Shown here piece by piece: positions 21,377 to 26,658 of a stretch of 36,261 bases of DNA. The DNA comes from a virus, in IMG/VR virus record IMGVR_UViG_3300030333_005836, positions 1 through 36,261 of that record. One strand, given 5' to 3'. Within the stretch, counting starts at the first letter, position 1; the number at the start of each line of letters is the position of its first letter. Below the pieces are notes generated by a model. The model saw only the letters and a program-made list of their open reading frames with translations, was not told the DNA's origin and ran no database searches. Both the position numbers and the translations under genes were made by a program.

Positions 21377-21557
21377 GAACGCCGTAACCATCCTCAAAGA
21401 GCTTGAGCGTCTCATCCTCCTGAGCCTCGATGAGCATAGTCAGGAGATGCATGGCCACAGCGTGGAGCTCCTGCACCACATTGAGCGCACACTCAAAGAG
21501 ATTCGAGTTCAACACGTGCTTAGAAAGATCAAGGGCGAAGATGATGGCGATGACTGA
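21360..21557 (+). CDS. Small helical protein, unrecognised
   Basis: 65 aa from the ATG at 21360. Leu/Glu/His/Lys-rich, likely a helical hairpin (VTILKELERLILLSLDEHSQEMHGHSVELLHHIERTLKEIR). Acidic C-terminus. It overlaps both neighbours by 17 bp, in a tight early cluster. Function unknown. Confidence 0.4.
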   Translation: MDQRDKNAVTILKELERLILLSLDEHSQEMHGHSVELLHHIERTLKEIRVQHVLRKIKGEDDGDD

Positions 21558-21765
21558 AGAGGAGAGGCGTGAGCGCGCCAACGCTCGACAGAGAGAGCGC
21601 TATAGAGCACGCATGGCAGCAGAGACGCCAGAGCAGAAGGAAGCACGTCTGCAGCGTATCCGGCTAAATCGTCGCGCTCGGTTAGCGGCTGAGACTCCAA
21701 GAGAGCGCGCTGAGAGGCTCGAGACTGAGGCCATGGTTAAACGGATTCGGGAGGGTAAAGAATGA
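21541..21765 (+). CDS. Arg/Glu-rich protein with ETPE repeats, paralogue 1
   Basis: About 74 aa from the ATG cluster at 21541/21544/21550. Built from a repeated pattern AETPEQKEARLQRIRLNRRARLAAETPRERAERLE, with Arg and Glu making up about half the protein. The charged pattern predicts a single long helix. It closely resembles the next gene and probably arose by tandem duplication. Similar ETPEQREARLxR repeats are known in diverse proteins without assigned function. It may bind nucleic acid. Confidence 0.5.
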   Translation: MMAMTEEERRERANARQRERYRARMAAETPEQKEARLQRIRLNRRARLAAETPRERAERLETEAMVKRIREGKE

Positions 21766-22058
21766 GAGAGCGCATGAGTAAAGAGCAGTATGAGCGACAT
21801 CTAGAGACGCGCAGGATTAAAGAGAGGGAGCGCAGGGCAAACGAGACGCCTGAGCAACGTGAGGAGCGCTTGGCTAGAATCCGTGAGCGCAAGCGATTGA
21901 GGCGAGAGAGAGAGACACCTCAAGAGGCTGCCGAGCGTCGAGAGTACAAAAGCTTGATGGCTAGATTGAGGCGAGAGATGGAGACACCTGAAGAGCGAGA
22001 GCGGCGTTTGAGTAAGGACAGGGAGCGCCGGCGGCTGAAGAAGCTAGGCCAAGCATGA
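21762..22058 (+). CDS. Arg/Glu-rich protein with ETPE repeats, paralogue 2
   Basis: 98 aa from ATG 21762 (ATGA overlap, GGAGGG upstream). Three ETP units are visible (NETPEQREERLARIRERKRLRR, RETPQEAAERRE, METPEERERRLSKDRERRRLKK). It is very highly charged, has no Cys or TM, and is predicted as one helix. It shares its repeat with the preceding gene. Function unknown; nucleic-acid binding is plausible from composition. Confidence 0.5.
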   Translation: MRERMSKEQYERHLETRRIKERERRANETPEQREERLARIRERKRLRRERETPQEAAERREYKSLMARLRREMETPEERERRLSKDRERRRLKKLGQA

Positions 22059-22794: not shown

Positions 22795-24164
22795 GCCTAG
22801 AGCTCAACCCTCTGCAGCGTGACATTATCGCTAGCATCAGGAGCGAACACCGAGTGGTGAGCGCTCGATGTGGATGGGGCGCAGGTAAAACCTCGGCGCT
22901 TGTCTTCGCGATCCTCTTTATAGCTAAGTGGCGAGCGGGTACCTCAACGTTACTCGTGACCGACACCAACGGACGATACAACAGCGTTCTCATGCCTGAG
23001 ATGCAAAAGTGGCTTGGTCCGCTCGGTTGGGTCTACAACCACACCTTGAGACAGTGGTGCGATCCATCAACCGGCTCAACCGTTTGGTGTAGATCCTACT
23101 TCCGACCTGGGACGCGTGACACGACCCACAACCCCCTTGAGGGTCTCAACATCACATCAGGGTGTTGTCTCGTCGACGAGTGTCAGACGCTCGATGAAGA
23201 GGTTGCTCATAAAGCGTTGGGTCGTTTGCGCTCAGGGCCATCACCCATCATGATCTTGGTGGGCCTGCCTGTGGCTGATGCGTGGTGGTGTCGCTTAGCC
23301 GAGACATCAGGCTGTGAACCTAAGCTCTATACATCCTATGTTAATCAGAGCAACCTGAGTGATGAATGGTTTGAGGCTACCAAGCTACTGCCTGAAGCTG
23401 AGCGTGAGGCCATGGTCATGAATAAGCCAAAGCCTCCAAGCGGCTTGGTCTATTCTGAGTTCGACCCTTCAACGATGGTCATCGATGGATGGGAGTATAA
23501 GCCCACCATGAGCGCTCGAATCGCTATCGACTGGGGATTTAGAAAACCATCAGTGATCATCCTCGCCCATGATGCGGAGCTCAACGCTGATGTCATCTGC
23601 GCCGAGTTTAACCCTGCTGAGGTCACGGTCAAACAGCTCGCCCAACTCATTCTCTCAGTGGCTTGGCCACGTGCGCTGCAGAGCTCAGCGCCAGGTGATC
23701 GGATATGGTTAGACAATGGAGCCGCAGACAAAGCCGGCAAAGCGCGCAACGACCAAACAGGTGCAAGCGCATTCCGAGCGATGCGAGCAGCTCCCCCCAA
23801 CGGTTTGGGGATGCCGTTAAGATCGACCACTGACGCTATCCGCACCGACATTCTTAACGGTGTCGGCAAACTCAAGCGCGCATTCACTCGGCGTCAATAC
23901 CTCATCACTCGTGAGGTCTGGGATAAGGGCGAGCGCGTGAGCGGTAACTCAATCAGGAAGGCTCTGCTGAGCTATGCTTGGGAACGGAACAAAGAGCAAC
24001 CCAAGAAGGACGGGCGCGAGGACCCTCTAGACGCTCTGCGCTATGACTGCATTATGTGGAGATGGGCAGATGATCAGACAGTCGACCAACGCCGATATCA
24101 GGGCAGGGCTAAAACTAAATCACGCCGCGTCAGAGTTGGCGGCGCTAAAGCAAGAGAATTCTAA
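22791..24164 (+). CDS. Terminase large subunit
   Basis: 457 aa starting with GTG at 22791. The ATPase has Walker A GWGAGKTSA (~residues 28-36), the adenine-side LNPLQRDII start, Walker B CCLVDECQ (~128) and coupling motif LVGLP (~155). The C-terminal nuclease half begins RIAIDWGFRKPSVIIL (~245, first acidic metal ligand), followed by a VICAEFN strand and the acidic end segment DGREDPLDALRYD (~425), the usual third acidic cluster. This motor pumps DNA into the prohead and cuts concatemers. GTG is used instead of ATG because the coupled TGA fixes the start. Length is normal for the family. Confidence 0.92.
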   Translation: MSLELNPLQRDIIASIRSEHRVVSARCGWGAGKTSALVFAILFIAKWRAGTSTLLVTDTNGRYNSVLMPEMQKWLGPLGWVYNHTLRQWCDPSTGSTVWCRSYFRPGTRDTTHNPLEGLNITSGCCLVDECQTLDEEVAHKALGRLRSGPSPIMILVGLPVADAWWCRLAETSGCEPKLYTSYVNQSNLSDEWFEATKLLPEAEREAMVMNKPKPPSGLVYSEFDPSTMVIDGWEYKPTMSARIAIDWGFRKPSVIILAHDAELNADVICAEFNPAEVTVKQLAQLILSVAWPRALQSSAPGDRIWLDNGAADKAGKARNDQTGASAFRAMRAAPPNGLGMPLRSTTDAIRTDILNGVGKLKRAFTRRQYLITREVWDKGERVSGNSIRKALLSYAWERNKEQPKKDGREDPLDALRYDCIMWRWADDQTVDQRRYQGRAKTKSRRVRVGGAKAREF

Positions 24165-24165
24165 A

Positions 24166-25296
24166 TTGTGGATCATACCCAAAAACTTACACACATCTCA
24201 CTCTGTACAGGTTACGGAGGGATTGACCTTGGACTCTCGCGAGCGCTTAGCGGAGCAGTGCGCGCCGTCGCTTATGTGGAAATCGAAGCCTTCGCCGTCG
24301 AAAACTTGGTATCGAAGATTGAAAACGAACTGCTCGAGGTGGCGCCTATTTTTACGGATCTTAAACGATTCCCTTGGCGAAAGTTTCGAGGACGAGTGGA
24401 CATCGTCTCTGGCGGCTTCCCTTGTCAACCATTTAGCAGCGCAGGCAGAGGAGTTGGAGACGAAGACTCACGTCACTTGTTTCCCTACATTCTCAACGGT
24501 CTCAGAGAGTTGGGAAGACCTCCCCTTGTTTTCCTCGAAAATGTTGAAGGGATCATCTCATCAAAGCTTAAGGGTAACGAATGGAGCGACCTTGAAAGAA
24601 CGCCTGTTTTGTTGCATGTCCTCCGTGAGTTGGAACGCGTGGGTTACAGCACAACGGCGGGAATATTCTCGGCGCGTGAAATCGGCGCGCCCCATCAACG
24701 AAGACGTGTATTCATCTTGGGTTGTCGCTCCGATCTCGGAGAGTCAGGACGCGCTTTTATTTCAGGGATGCTTGAGCGAGGTCGAGGGGGGACAAGTCAA
24801 GTCTATCCCGCCCCACGAGGTGCAACCCAACATGCATACGAACCGCCCCGTGTCACAATGGGCAACGCCAGAAGCAGGGAGCAAAGACCACATGAGCTCG
24901 AATCCGGCTTATTACATAAGCCGGATGGAGAAGGGGAAACAAATAAGCCTCAATGGGCAAGTGATACTCGACGCACAAGAACCCGCGTCACTAGCAAGGC
25001 TCAATCCGAGATGGGTAGAGACGTTGATGGGCTTACCAGTGGGATGGGTTATGCCGAGCTGTGTTATGCCATGGACAATAGGACTGATGAACTCCGCTTA
25101 CTCGGGAATGGAGCTGTGCCTGACACAGCAAAGCGAGCATTCTGTCAACTGTGGCGAGATATGGAACACTCAACCTACTATTAAAACGAAGACTCGCGTC
25201 ACATGTTTCCCTACATTCTCAACGGTCTCAGAGAGTTGGGAAGACCTCCCCTTGTTTTCCTCGAAAATGTTAACGCGACGAGATGATGACGATTAA
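24166..25296 (+). CDS. Long overlapping reading frame over the methyltransferase (possible second gene)
   Basis: The +1 frame relative to the methyltransferase is open from before 24043 to the TAA at 25294-25296. The start is unclear: TTG 24166, or ATG 24043 inside terminase. It contains LNPRWVETLMGLPVGW (25000-25047) and, upstream, YSRRVKSARPINEDVYSSW and QWATPEAGSKDH, patterns I associate with phage proteins linked to C5 methyltransferases. The same bases encode methyltransferase motifs in the other frame, so conservation in one frame could drag the other along. It runs through the downstream duplicated 86 bp. No RBS supports independent translation. Confidence 0.35.
   Translation: MWIIPKNLHTSHSVQVTEGLTLDSRERLAEQCAPSLMWKSKPSPSKTWYRRLKTNCSRWRLFLRILNDSLGESFEDEWTSSLAASLVNHLAAQAEELETKTHVTCFPTFSTVSESWEDLPLFSSKMLKGSSHQSLRVTNGATLKERLFCCMSSVSWNAWVTAQRREYSRRVKSARPINEDVYSSWVVAPISESQDALLFQGCLSEVEGGQVKSIPPHEVQPNMHTNRPVSQWATPEAGSKDHMSSNPAYYISRMEKGKQISLNGQVILDAQEPASLARLNPRWVETLMGLPVGWVMPSCVMPWTIGLMNSAYSGMELCLTQQSEHSVNCGEIWNTQPTIKTKTRVTCFPTFSTVSESWEDLPLFSSKMLTRRDDDD
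24168..25184 (+). CDS. C5-cytosine DNA methyltransferase
   Basis: 338 aa from GTG 24168, three bases after the terminase stop. All main motifs are present in order: motif I CTGYGGIDLGLSRAL (13-27, SAM binding), motif IV GFPCQPFSSAG with catalytic Cys86, motif VI FLENVEG (122-128), motif VIII QRRRVFILG (177-185), a target-recognition region (~190-300), and motif X LRLLGNGAVP (309-318). It should transfer a methyl group from SAM to C5 of cytosine in a specific site, most likely protecting phage DNA from host restriction. No endonuclease partner is visible, so it is an orphan enzyme. A second frame (+1) is open across the whole gene. An 86 bp internal piece is duplicated downstream. Confidence 0.93.
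   Translation: MDHTQKLTHISLCTGYGGIDLGLSRALSGAVRAVAYVEIEAFAVENLVSKIENELLEVAPIFTDLKRFPWRKFRGRVDIVSGGFPCQPFSSAGRGVGDEDSRHLFPYILNGLRELGRPPLVFLENVEGIISSKLKGNEWSDLERTPVLLHVLRELERVGYSTTAGIFSAREIGAPHQRRRVFILGCRSDLGESGRAFISGMLERGRGGTSQVYPAPRGATQHAYEPPRVTMGNARSREQRPHELESGLLHKPDGEGETNKPQWASDTRRTRTRVTSKAQSEMGRDVDGLTSGMGYAELCYAMDNRTDELRLLGNGAVPDTAKRAFCQLWRDMEHSTYY
24460..24545 (+). repeat. 86 bp direct repeat, copy 1 (inside methyltransferase)
   Basis: Matches 25186-25271 at 84 of 86 bases; the offset is 726 bp, a multiple of three. It encodes methyltransferase residues 98-126, from DED through the ENV of motif VI. Confidence 0.92.
25186..25271 (+). repeat. 86 bp direct repeat, copy 2 (methyltransferase fragment)
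   Basis: Starts one base after the codon following the methyltransferase TAA and encodes the same peptide in the methyltransferase frame with L to M at one position, then runs to a stop after NATR. It looks like a remnant of a second methyltransferase copy or a recombination scar. Confidence 0.9.
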
Positions 25297-25504
25297 AACA
25301 ATTTTCTTAACTCCTAGAGAAGAGTTCGATAGTGCAATAATTACTATTCAGGATGGAATTGCTATTTATAAGGTTGAGCTAATTATTCAGGTTTATCAGC
25401 AACGCGGAATGAGTGAAAACGAAGCTAGGGATTTTTTCTTTTTTAATTGCGAGGGGGTATACATGGGTCCGTATACGCCTCGCTATGAATATGATTCTGA
25501 ATAA
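25283..25504 (+). CDS. Small AT-rich gene product, unrecognised
   Basis: 73 aa from ATG 25283 (or 25286). The DNA here is distinctly richer in A/T than its surroundings (runs such as GATTTTTTCTTTTTTAATTG), which suggests separate acquisition along with the methyltransferase fragment. The peptide (FLTPREEFDSAIITIQDGIAIYKVELIIQVYQQRGMSENEARDFFFFNCEGVYMG) has an EARDFFFFN segment seen in small phage hypothetical proteins, with no assigned role. It ends ten bases before the thyX ATG. Confidence 0.45.
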   Translation: MMTIKTIFLTPREEFDSAIITIQDGIAIYKVELIIQVYQQRGMSENEARDFFFFNCEGVYMGPYTPRYEYDSE

Positions 25505-25514
25505 AGGGATTTTG

Positions 25515-26189
25515 ATGAAGATCTATAATGACGGCGTTGGCGAGGTGATCTTACTCGACTCAATGGGCTCAGATGAGACACCAGCTCAAGCGGCTCGCGT
25601 GTCCTTCTCCAAGCTCAGCGCAGACATCACAAGCGGTATGAGCGACAAGGACGCTAAGCTCATCAGGTATCTGGCAGCGCATGGGCACACCTCACCATTC
25701 GAGCATGTCACAGCCTCATTTGAGCTCACGGTGCCTCTGTTCGTGCGCGCTCAGATCATGCGTCACCGCACCTTCTCATTCAATGAGATCAGCAGGCGCT
25801 ACACCTCAAAAGCTATCGCGATCTATCACCCTCAAGAGATCAGGCGCCAAGCAGAGAAGAATCTGCAATGCTCCTCTGACGAGCTCCCTGATGATCCCGA
25901 ACACTGCAAAGCGCTGTTTGCAAGCTCAGCCGCGACATCGATGGCGCTCTATAACGAGCTCATCTCTAGAGGTGTTTCACGTGAAACCGCGAGGATCGTT
26001 CTGCCCAACGGCCTCTACACCTCGTTTTGGATGTCGGGCAATCTTCACAACTGGGTTAAGTTCGTCAGGCTCAGGACTACCGAGCACGTACAGCTTGAGA
26101 CGCGCTTGGCTGCAGAGGCGATCAAGGCGCAACTGCTTGAGCGTTTCCCCATCTCAGTTAAAGCGCTGTTGAATGATGAGTATGAATAA
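25515..26189 (+). CDS. thyX: FAD-dependent thymidylate synthase ThyX
   Basis: 224 aa from ATG 25515 with AAAGGGA upstream. The ThyX signature RHRTFSFNEISRRY (pattern RHRxxSxNExSxRY) lies at ~residues 78-91, preceded by HGHTSPFEHVTASFEL and followed by the C-terminal NLHNWVKFVRLRTTEHVQLETRLAAEAI. ThyX makes dTMP from dUMP using methylene-THF, NAD(P)H and FAD. The next gene is a dCMP-deaminase-like enzyme that would supply dUMP, so the pair forms a short route to dTTP for phage DNA synthesis. Overlaps the deaminase by 17 bp. Length is normal. Confidence 0.95.
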   Translation: MKIYNDGVGEVILLDSMGSDETPAQAARVSFSKLSADITSGMSDKDAKLIRYLAAHGHTSPFEHVTASFELTVPLFVRAQIMRHRTFSFNEISRRYTSKAIAIYHPQEIRRQAEKNLQCSSDELPDDPEHCKALFASSAATSMALYNELISRGVSRETARIVLPNGLYTSFWMSGNLHNWVKFVRLRTTEHVQLETRLAAEAIKAQLLERFPISVKALLNDEYE

Positions 26190-26658
26190 ACACATCATCG
26201 CCAGACTCAAGCAAGCTCAGATTCTCAGCGAGCTCTCACCATGTCCACGTGGCAAGGTTGGCGCTGTGATCTTCGAGCCCATGAGTTGGGTCATTATTAG
26301 CGATGGATACAACGGGCCGCCGAGAGGTGGTGGTCATCTCTGCGGTGGTGACCTCTGTGAGAGAGACGTTAAGCAGATCATCAGCGGGACGATGACAGAG
26401 GTTGGATGCCATCACGCTGAGTCTAACGCGATCATTAACGCTGCTCGCCGAGGGAGCTCCACGATTGGCGCTTGGCTAGCCGTCTCGCGCACTCCCTGCC
26501 TCAACTGTGCTAAAGCTATACACCACGCAGGAATTGAGCGTGTTTATGTTATAACCGAGCAAGCGCTTGACTGCGTCGGCGCTGAATACCTCAGAGAGCA
26601 TAGCGTGGAGGTGATGAGATGGAGCGAGAAGAGGAGACATATCAAGAGCGATGTCTAG
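26173..26658 (+). CDS. Deoxycytidylate (dCMP) deaminase-like enzyme
   Basis: 161 aa from ATG 26173 (26182 also possible). Zinc-deaminase motifs: CHHAESNAI (His and catalytic Glu, H-A-E) and RTPCLNCAKAI (P-C-x-x-C), with the usual start PCPRGKVGAVIF and DGYNGPPRGG as in dCMP deaminases. It converts dCMP to dUMP, the ThyX substrate. The extra C-terminal residues (WSEKRRHIKSDV) are read in the overlap with the cyclase gene, whose perfect SD GGAGGTGA lies inside this gene. Confidence 0.88.
   Translation: MMSMNKHIIARLKQAQILSELSPCPRGKVGAVIFEPMSWVIISDGYNGPPRGGGHLCGGDLCERDVKQIISGTMTEVGCHHAESNAIINAARRGSSTIGAWLAVSRTPCLNCAKAIHHAGIERVYVITEQALDCVGAEYLREHSVEVMRWSEKRRHIKSDV

Follow-up and report, generated by a model that had tools for sequence, protein, structure and literature searches.

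What does the second long reading frame over the cytosine methyltransferase gene of this virus encode, and why does it stay open? In the window (the whole stretch of 36,261 nucleotides that was analyzed), the methyltransferase lies in frame 0 (alpha), and an open reading frame in the +1 frame (beta) runs from 24043 to 25296, spanning the whole methyltransferase frame. The first-pass annotation had left three options: a true overprinted gene, a frame dragged open by methyltransferase conservation, or a source of fusion proteins made by frameshifting. A point that it missed is that the two frames most likely carry complementary parts of one enzyme, as the distribution of the motifs suggests.

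Frame 0 had been described as open and as carrying all canonical motifs of a C5-cytosine methyltransferase. The frame is indeed open, but the set of motifs is incomplete, with motif IX absent and no folded target-recognition domain (TRD). Alpha has motifs I–VIII (with PCQ and ENV) and motif X as expected for PF00145, and the Pfam match itself (E 1.5e-31) covers residues 8–193 only; a TRD followed by motif IX was not found on the alpha polypeptide, where PF00145 ends at residue 193 and the IX-like stretch lies in the +1 frame. In the AlphaFold2 (AF2) model of alpha, pLDDT exceeds 90 across most of I–VIII and the motif X end is helical, with residues 231–303 mostly predicted disordered and of low confidence in much of the stretch. 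Foldseek aligned ~192 columns of alpha with M.HhaI, the large-domain fold without the small domain. No further methyltransferase was found in the window record besides the alpha/beta locus.

The +1 frame had been correctly reported as open for more than 1.2 kb and as encoding LNPRWVETLMGLPVGW at exactly 25000–25047, bases that give EMGRDVDGLTSGMG in frame 0. The ATG at 24043 falls within the terminase gene, and comparison with relatives makes TTG 24166 the most likely start of beta (Table 1). Alpha and beta would both initiate from one region, which in the window is a composite start. When starts were assigned by a script that required the two to lie no more than 40 nt apart, they were ≤14 nt apart in all 130 assigned loci. 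An overlapping NTGTG start was present in 84 of the 130, where beta begins Met-Trp-Ile-(Leu/Ile), and the commonest composite starts after NTGTG were ATGACATGG and ATGAATGAGTTGG. The beta start of the window is the weak codon TTG, a point against the explanation that we prefer.

Table 1. Coordinates of the features of the alpha/beta locus in the window.
Feature	Position	Strand	Remarks
Alpha, C5-cytosine methyltransferase catalytic polypeptide	24168..25184	+	GTG start; motifs I–VIII and X; 338 aa
Beta polypeptide, 376 aa	24166..25296	+	Most likely TTG start; N-terminal domain, WPTP-type variable region, motif-IX-like stretch
Possible Shine-Dalgarno AAGAGAA	24152..24158	+	Read by eye
Composite start TTGTG	24166..24170	+	Beta TTG 24166–24168, alpha GTG 24168–24170, one base common to both
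Beta conserved N-terminal island LMWKSKPSPSKTWYRR	24271..24318	+	K41 near-invariant (alignment); AF2 pLDDT 72–83 thereabouts
Alpha motif IV PCQPFS	24420..24437	+	Translation; P85, C86, Q87, and S90 invariant in family alignment
93-nt direct repeat, copy 1	24460..24552	+	Inside alpha, ENV region; repeat search
Beta conserved helix SWNAWVTAQRREYSRRVKSAR	24628..24690	+	AF2 helix 153–173, pLDDT ~95; V160, R164, and R170 near-invariant
Beta variable target-recognition-like region, diverged WPTP repeats	24718..24999	+	Frame 0 there mostly predicted-disordered linker
Beta LNPRWVETLMGLPVGW, putative C5-methyltransferase motif IX	25000..25047	+	+1 frame; gap-free pattern match to canonical LTPRECWRLQGFP
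Alpha motif X LRLLGNGAVP	25092..25121	+	Frame 0, translation
93-nt direct repeat, copy 2 (95%)	25186..25278	+	Just past alpha stop; beta kept open to 25296

Searching viral contigs separately with the +1 family and with the methyltransferase family yielded 160 loci; since the methyltransferase profile used for gathering them included seeds found via the +1 protein, the sample may hold too few extreme relatives that have no +1 ORF. In nearly all 160 loci, also those picked by methyltransferase similarity only, a +1 ORF of ~650–1600 nt ran along the methyltransferase. Among 40,000 synonymous shuffles of the methyltransferase gene that preserved the alpha protein and its codon usage, only 4 were stop-free in the +1 frame (mean 6.7 stops), placing its openness beyond chance. 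Over 157 distinct methyltransferase loci, we counted 403 stops in the +1 frame versus 1188 expected from synonymous shuffles, and 2998 in the +2 frame. For a set of 35 methyltransferases with <60% identity, picked by methyltransferase similarity alone, the +1 frame within motifs I–VIII contained 4 stops versus 100.2 expected and was stop-free in 32 loci versus 1.4 expected, while the +2 control had 276 stops versus 280.7 expected.

As a second test of the +1 frame, we examined substitutions in 28 disjoint close pairs, which have their deeper ancestry in common. The 492 alpha-synonymous wobble changes within I–VIII created no stop in beta (35.6 expected) and caused milder residue changes (P < 0.0002); in the +2 frame, the same changes created 54 stops versus 56.3 expected. 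The first-pass annotation had proposed comparing substitution by codon position in both frames, and this comparison bore out selection on +1: position 3 took a share of 0.50 of the substitutions in alpha I–VIII versus 0.67 in neighboring genes of the same 12 pairs (P 5.5e-14). Residues of the +1 frame were conserved well above synonymous shuffles in I–IV, V–VIII, and IX, and above those of +2, which uses the same wobble bases. The column identity of 0.28 in the +1 frame is in part a shadow of alpha, with synonymous shuffles still retaining 0.19. That retained identity is what one would expect if the +1 frame were untranslated and held open by methyltransferase conservation and codon bias, a reading to which we give practically no credence: it is strongly rejected by the shuffle and wobble-substitution tests, the +2 frame is neutral for stops, and in L116, L131, L133, and L136 frame 0 is broken with the +1 frame open. 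Conservation of the methyltransferase cannot explain the open +1 frame, judging by the stop counts and the wobble substitutions. Close homologues, where a dispensable +1 frame should have collected stops under a conserved methyltransferase, displayed the opposite. Stop avoidance, residue conservation, the substitution tests, and the paired starts strongly support the option of a true overprinted gene; purifying selection acts on both frames, as in an overprinted pair, and beta is almost certainly a genuine coding sequence.

Selection also switches frames along the gene. In close pairs, the fastest-changing frame-0 position was position 3 in I–VIII and X and position 1, the wobble position of +1, in the TRD–IX region. 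Changes in the motif IX region fell on frame-0 positions 1, 2, and 3 in the numbers 92, 13, and 2, the pattern of +1 coding, in a count partly ascertained by choosing loci on the pattern inside IX; in pairs chosen by the methyltransferase alone, the numbers were 46, 21, and 16, again opposite to what frame-0 coding ordinarily gives. The switch of the fastest position means that both frames are in use over I–VIII, whereas +1 predominates at IX and frame 0 at X. Selection on both frames, this switch, and the conserved pairing of the starts are computed directly from the aligned loci.

We then asked what beta contains. Comparison of beta with Pfam and NCBIfam gave no meaningful match, and no homologue was found among solved structures. 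In PHROGs, phrog_1008 (“DNA methyltransferase”) matched beta with E 4.6e-8 at the LNPRWVE stretch (profile positions 260–279) and was matched by 90 of 92 beta relatives; its family name implies a whole methyltransferase, whereas the beta of the window is without catalytic motifs. Aligned by eye, LNPRWVETLMGLP of beta matches gap-free both canonical motif IX LTPRECWRLQGFP and LSPVFVEWMMGLP of single-chain actinophage enzymes. Searched as a profile against the PDB, the IX–X sequences matched no methyltransferase and returned a chance match only. By its position, pattern, and frame-hopping, the stretch fits motif IX, an assignment strengthened because the pieces change frame between loci. Modeled alone by AlphaFold, beta had a mean pLDDT of 56 and three confident islands, one of which is the motif IX helix. 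The counterpart of its N-terminal island in a Synechococcus phage is VWWRGKPSPSRSWYRR.

The frame that carries motifs IX and X varies among the relatives. In L022, L077, and L122, both are in the +1 frame, with X after IX; motif X is in +1 in L074, both motifs are on beta in L222, and a short +1 ORF of mycobacteriophage EricB carries IX as well as X. The single-chain actinophage relatives A1SD1 and JKSyngboy have IX and X in the methyltransferase frame, and Florinda, another such relative, has LLPTP repeats in that frame. The four loci with a broken frame 0 are interrupted by stops after motif VIII with +1 intact, and their motif X is encoded by a small third ORF that has an ATG of its own and starts MADT or MGNA; in L116 and L136, a strong ribosome-binding site precedes this ORF. 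These loci apparently encode a three-piece methyltransferase.

Beta could also be a real overprinted protein with a role other than that of a subunit, such as regulating the methyltransferase or countering host defense. The N-terminal half, for which no known homologue was found, and the AF2 model of beta alone, in which no TRD fold is recognizable, would suit such a role; however, the C-terminal half has the motif-IX-like stretch that is missing from alpha, motif X joins beta in L022, L077, and L122, the same pieces occur in the methyltransferase frame of single-chain enzymes, and two-polypeptide C5-methyltransferases are known. We therefore consider a non-subunit role improbable and a methyltransferase subunit the likely identity of beta.

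The layout extends well beyond the window. In a tblastn search, the +1 protein matched +1 ORFs across the methyltransferase genes of phage C75C1 (35% identity, E 8e-17) and of Synechococcus phages and, weakly, that of a Microcystis phage; viral contigs searched directly with the +1 protein of the window alone gave no match, being too divergent. In bacterial and archaeal genomes, the beta family found 75 loci, 68 of them classifiable, without using the relation of the frames for selection. Motif IX was in +1 relative to I–VIII in 64 of the 68, and in 61 of these 64 motif X was in frame 0. Beta is nested in many of the bacterial and archaeal loci, starting ~150–200 nt inside alpha. In nested-start loci, the +1 frame held 6 stops versus 97.0 expected after +210 nt and 149 versus 269.1 over the whole region, so stop avoidance sets in at the internal start and acts downstream only. 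Among plasmids, there was no match to the beta of the window, and eight records matched the nested-type beta. The Escherichia coli prophage PT62 encodes alpha with an open beta.

Several records touch on how such genes are annotated. In the E. coli PCP07014 prophage, the methyltransferase (L176 1500–2261) is annotated as a pseudogene and has stops in alpha and beta at the same place. The near-identical Synechococcus phages Ssp-JY39 and Yong-M2-251 (L005/L006) differ in annotation, the +1 ORF being called (as a hypothetical protein) in one and frame 0 (as a methyltransferase) in the other. A shorter form carries the annotation “internal gene” or second methyltransferase in phage records of the bee pathogen Paenibacillus larvae. 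An annotation or sequencing error behind the split is unlikely because the layout recurs in more than 100 unrelated contigs. Literature searches found no paper describing a phage family of overprinted methyltransferases.

Under programmed ribosomal frameshifting, the frames would be joined by a shift from frame 0 into +1, and genes of the window type would add a second shift back to 0 for motif X. The order of the motifs on the DNA, with I–VIII in frame 0, TRD–IX in +1, and X in 0 or +1, is compatible with this, but window-type genes would require two shifts, fusion needs neither beta selection across all of I–VIII nor a conserved beta start beside that of alpha, and in nested-start relatives the avoidance of +1 stops is confined to the part downstream of the internal start. 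We judge frameshifting very unlikely; with a start of its own next to that of alpha, beta can do without it. The earlier suggestion of fusions between the frames survives as evolution, with IX in +1 and X in 0, both in +1, or both in 0 among the relatives.

Other features of the region were recorded. The second copy of the 93-nt repeat duplicates part of the alpha ENV region and prolongs the open beta frame by 112 nt; the closest relative, L090, has a single copy. Directly downstream of the methyltransferase pair are genes for a ThyX thymidylate synthase and a dCMP deaminase (25413–26658). The segment 26619–27864 encodes a protein resembling class III nucleotidyl cyclases (PF00211, E 1.9e-4, slightly under the cut-off) and, after it, a small membrane protein that gave a weak match of the SLATT type, a pair that resembles cyclase plus membrane-effector defense systems; PADLOC gave no match. 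At 21430–22058, two adjoining ORFs consist of basic repeats of the type ETPEQREERLARIRERKRLRRE, which STPR repeats matched weakly.

Taken together, the explanation that we favor, with a probability of roughly 0.83, is a two-polypeptide C5-cytosine methyltransferase of the M.EcoHK31I kind made from two fully overlapping frames, most likely protecting DNA from restriction. Alpha would supply the cofactor-binding and catalytic core (I–VIII) and motif X, and beta the conserved N-terminal domain, the variable target-recognition-like region, and motif IX. We infer from the sequences that beta is translated, that it assembles with alpha into an active enzyme, and that both are needed for activity. 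The assembled enzyme would most likely methylate phage DNA against host restriction, a biological purpose that is plausible. As beta carries the DNA-recognition end absent from alpha, ~1 kb most likely encodes both halves of the enzyme, in phages and bacteria alike.

We hypothesize further, with less assurance but as the better bet, that a target-recognition half encoded in +1 is the normal state of a large C5-methyltransferase clade that spans phages, bacteria, and some archaea and whose members mostly pass as single genes in annotations. There would be two types of beta, one nested inside alpha and the other full-length as in the window, with its N-terminal domain overprinted across the catalytic domain and its start codon overlapping that of alpha. 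Motifs IX and X could move between frames because the parts assemble as separate chains, and some phages would use three pieces. If so, many genes annotated as a single DNA cytosine methyltransferase are gene pairs, and the annotated frame cloned alone would give an inactive enzyme, with sequence specificity held by the unannotated partner. Few overlapping gene pairs supported in prokaryotes would then be as long or as widespread as these, in which both frames would encode parts of the same enzyme, whereas overprinted genes usually encode unrelated proteins. Such pairs would also offer a testable system for the origin of overlapping genes and the movement of protein parts between frames.

Among known enzymes, M.EcoHK31I recognizes YGGCCR and M.AquI CYCGRG, and M.EaeI is similar to M.EcoHK31I. 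The small subunit of M.EcoHK31I (~176 aa) is encoded in an alternative frame, nested inside the large-subunit gene; the window likewise has a small-subunit gene that overlaps the large one in another frame, but its beta, with 376 aa, covers the whole of alpha and begins at a common start. M.AquI and M.EcoHK31I are natural two-polypeptide C5-methyltransferases (PMC3404938). In M.EcoHK31I, motifs I–VIII and X are on the large polypeptide and only motif IX is on the small one (PMC3404938), and the window likewise has I–VIII and X on one polypeptide and IX on the other. The predicted TRD of M.EcoHK31I was placed in the large subunit (PMC3404938), unlike the TRD-like region of the window, which is apparently in beta; the two systems are likened by their motif layout. 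In M.AquI, alpha has I–VIII, beta has IX and X, and the variable region is divided (PMC3404938). The window shares with it the splitting of the motifs over two polypeptides and an alpha with I–VIII, but its motif X is on alpha, which sets it apart from the AquI type; L022, L077, L122, and L222 have an AquI-like division of the motifs, but in overlapped genes.

Overlapping frames within a phage methylase gene also occur with the ShiLan domain (PMC11855218), which is an out-of-frame HNH endonuclease, a homing insertion and, unlike beta, not a part of the methylase. The P. larvae phages Shelly (gp56), Diva (gp50), and Leyra (gp62) have a second CDS, annotated by the depositors, within the methyltransferase gene, in another frame and with the same kind of end motif; their beta differs in starting 184 nt inside alpha and in being 705 nt long, and the records state no mechanism.
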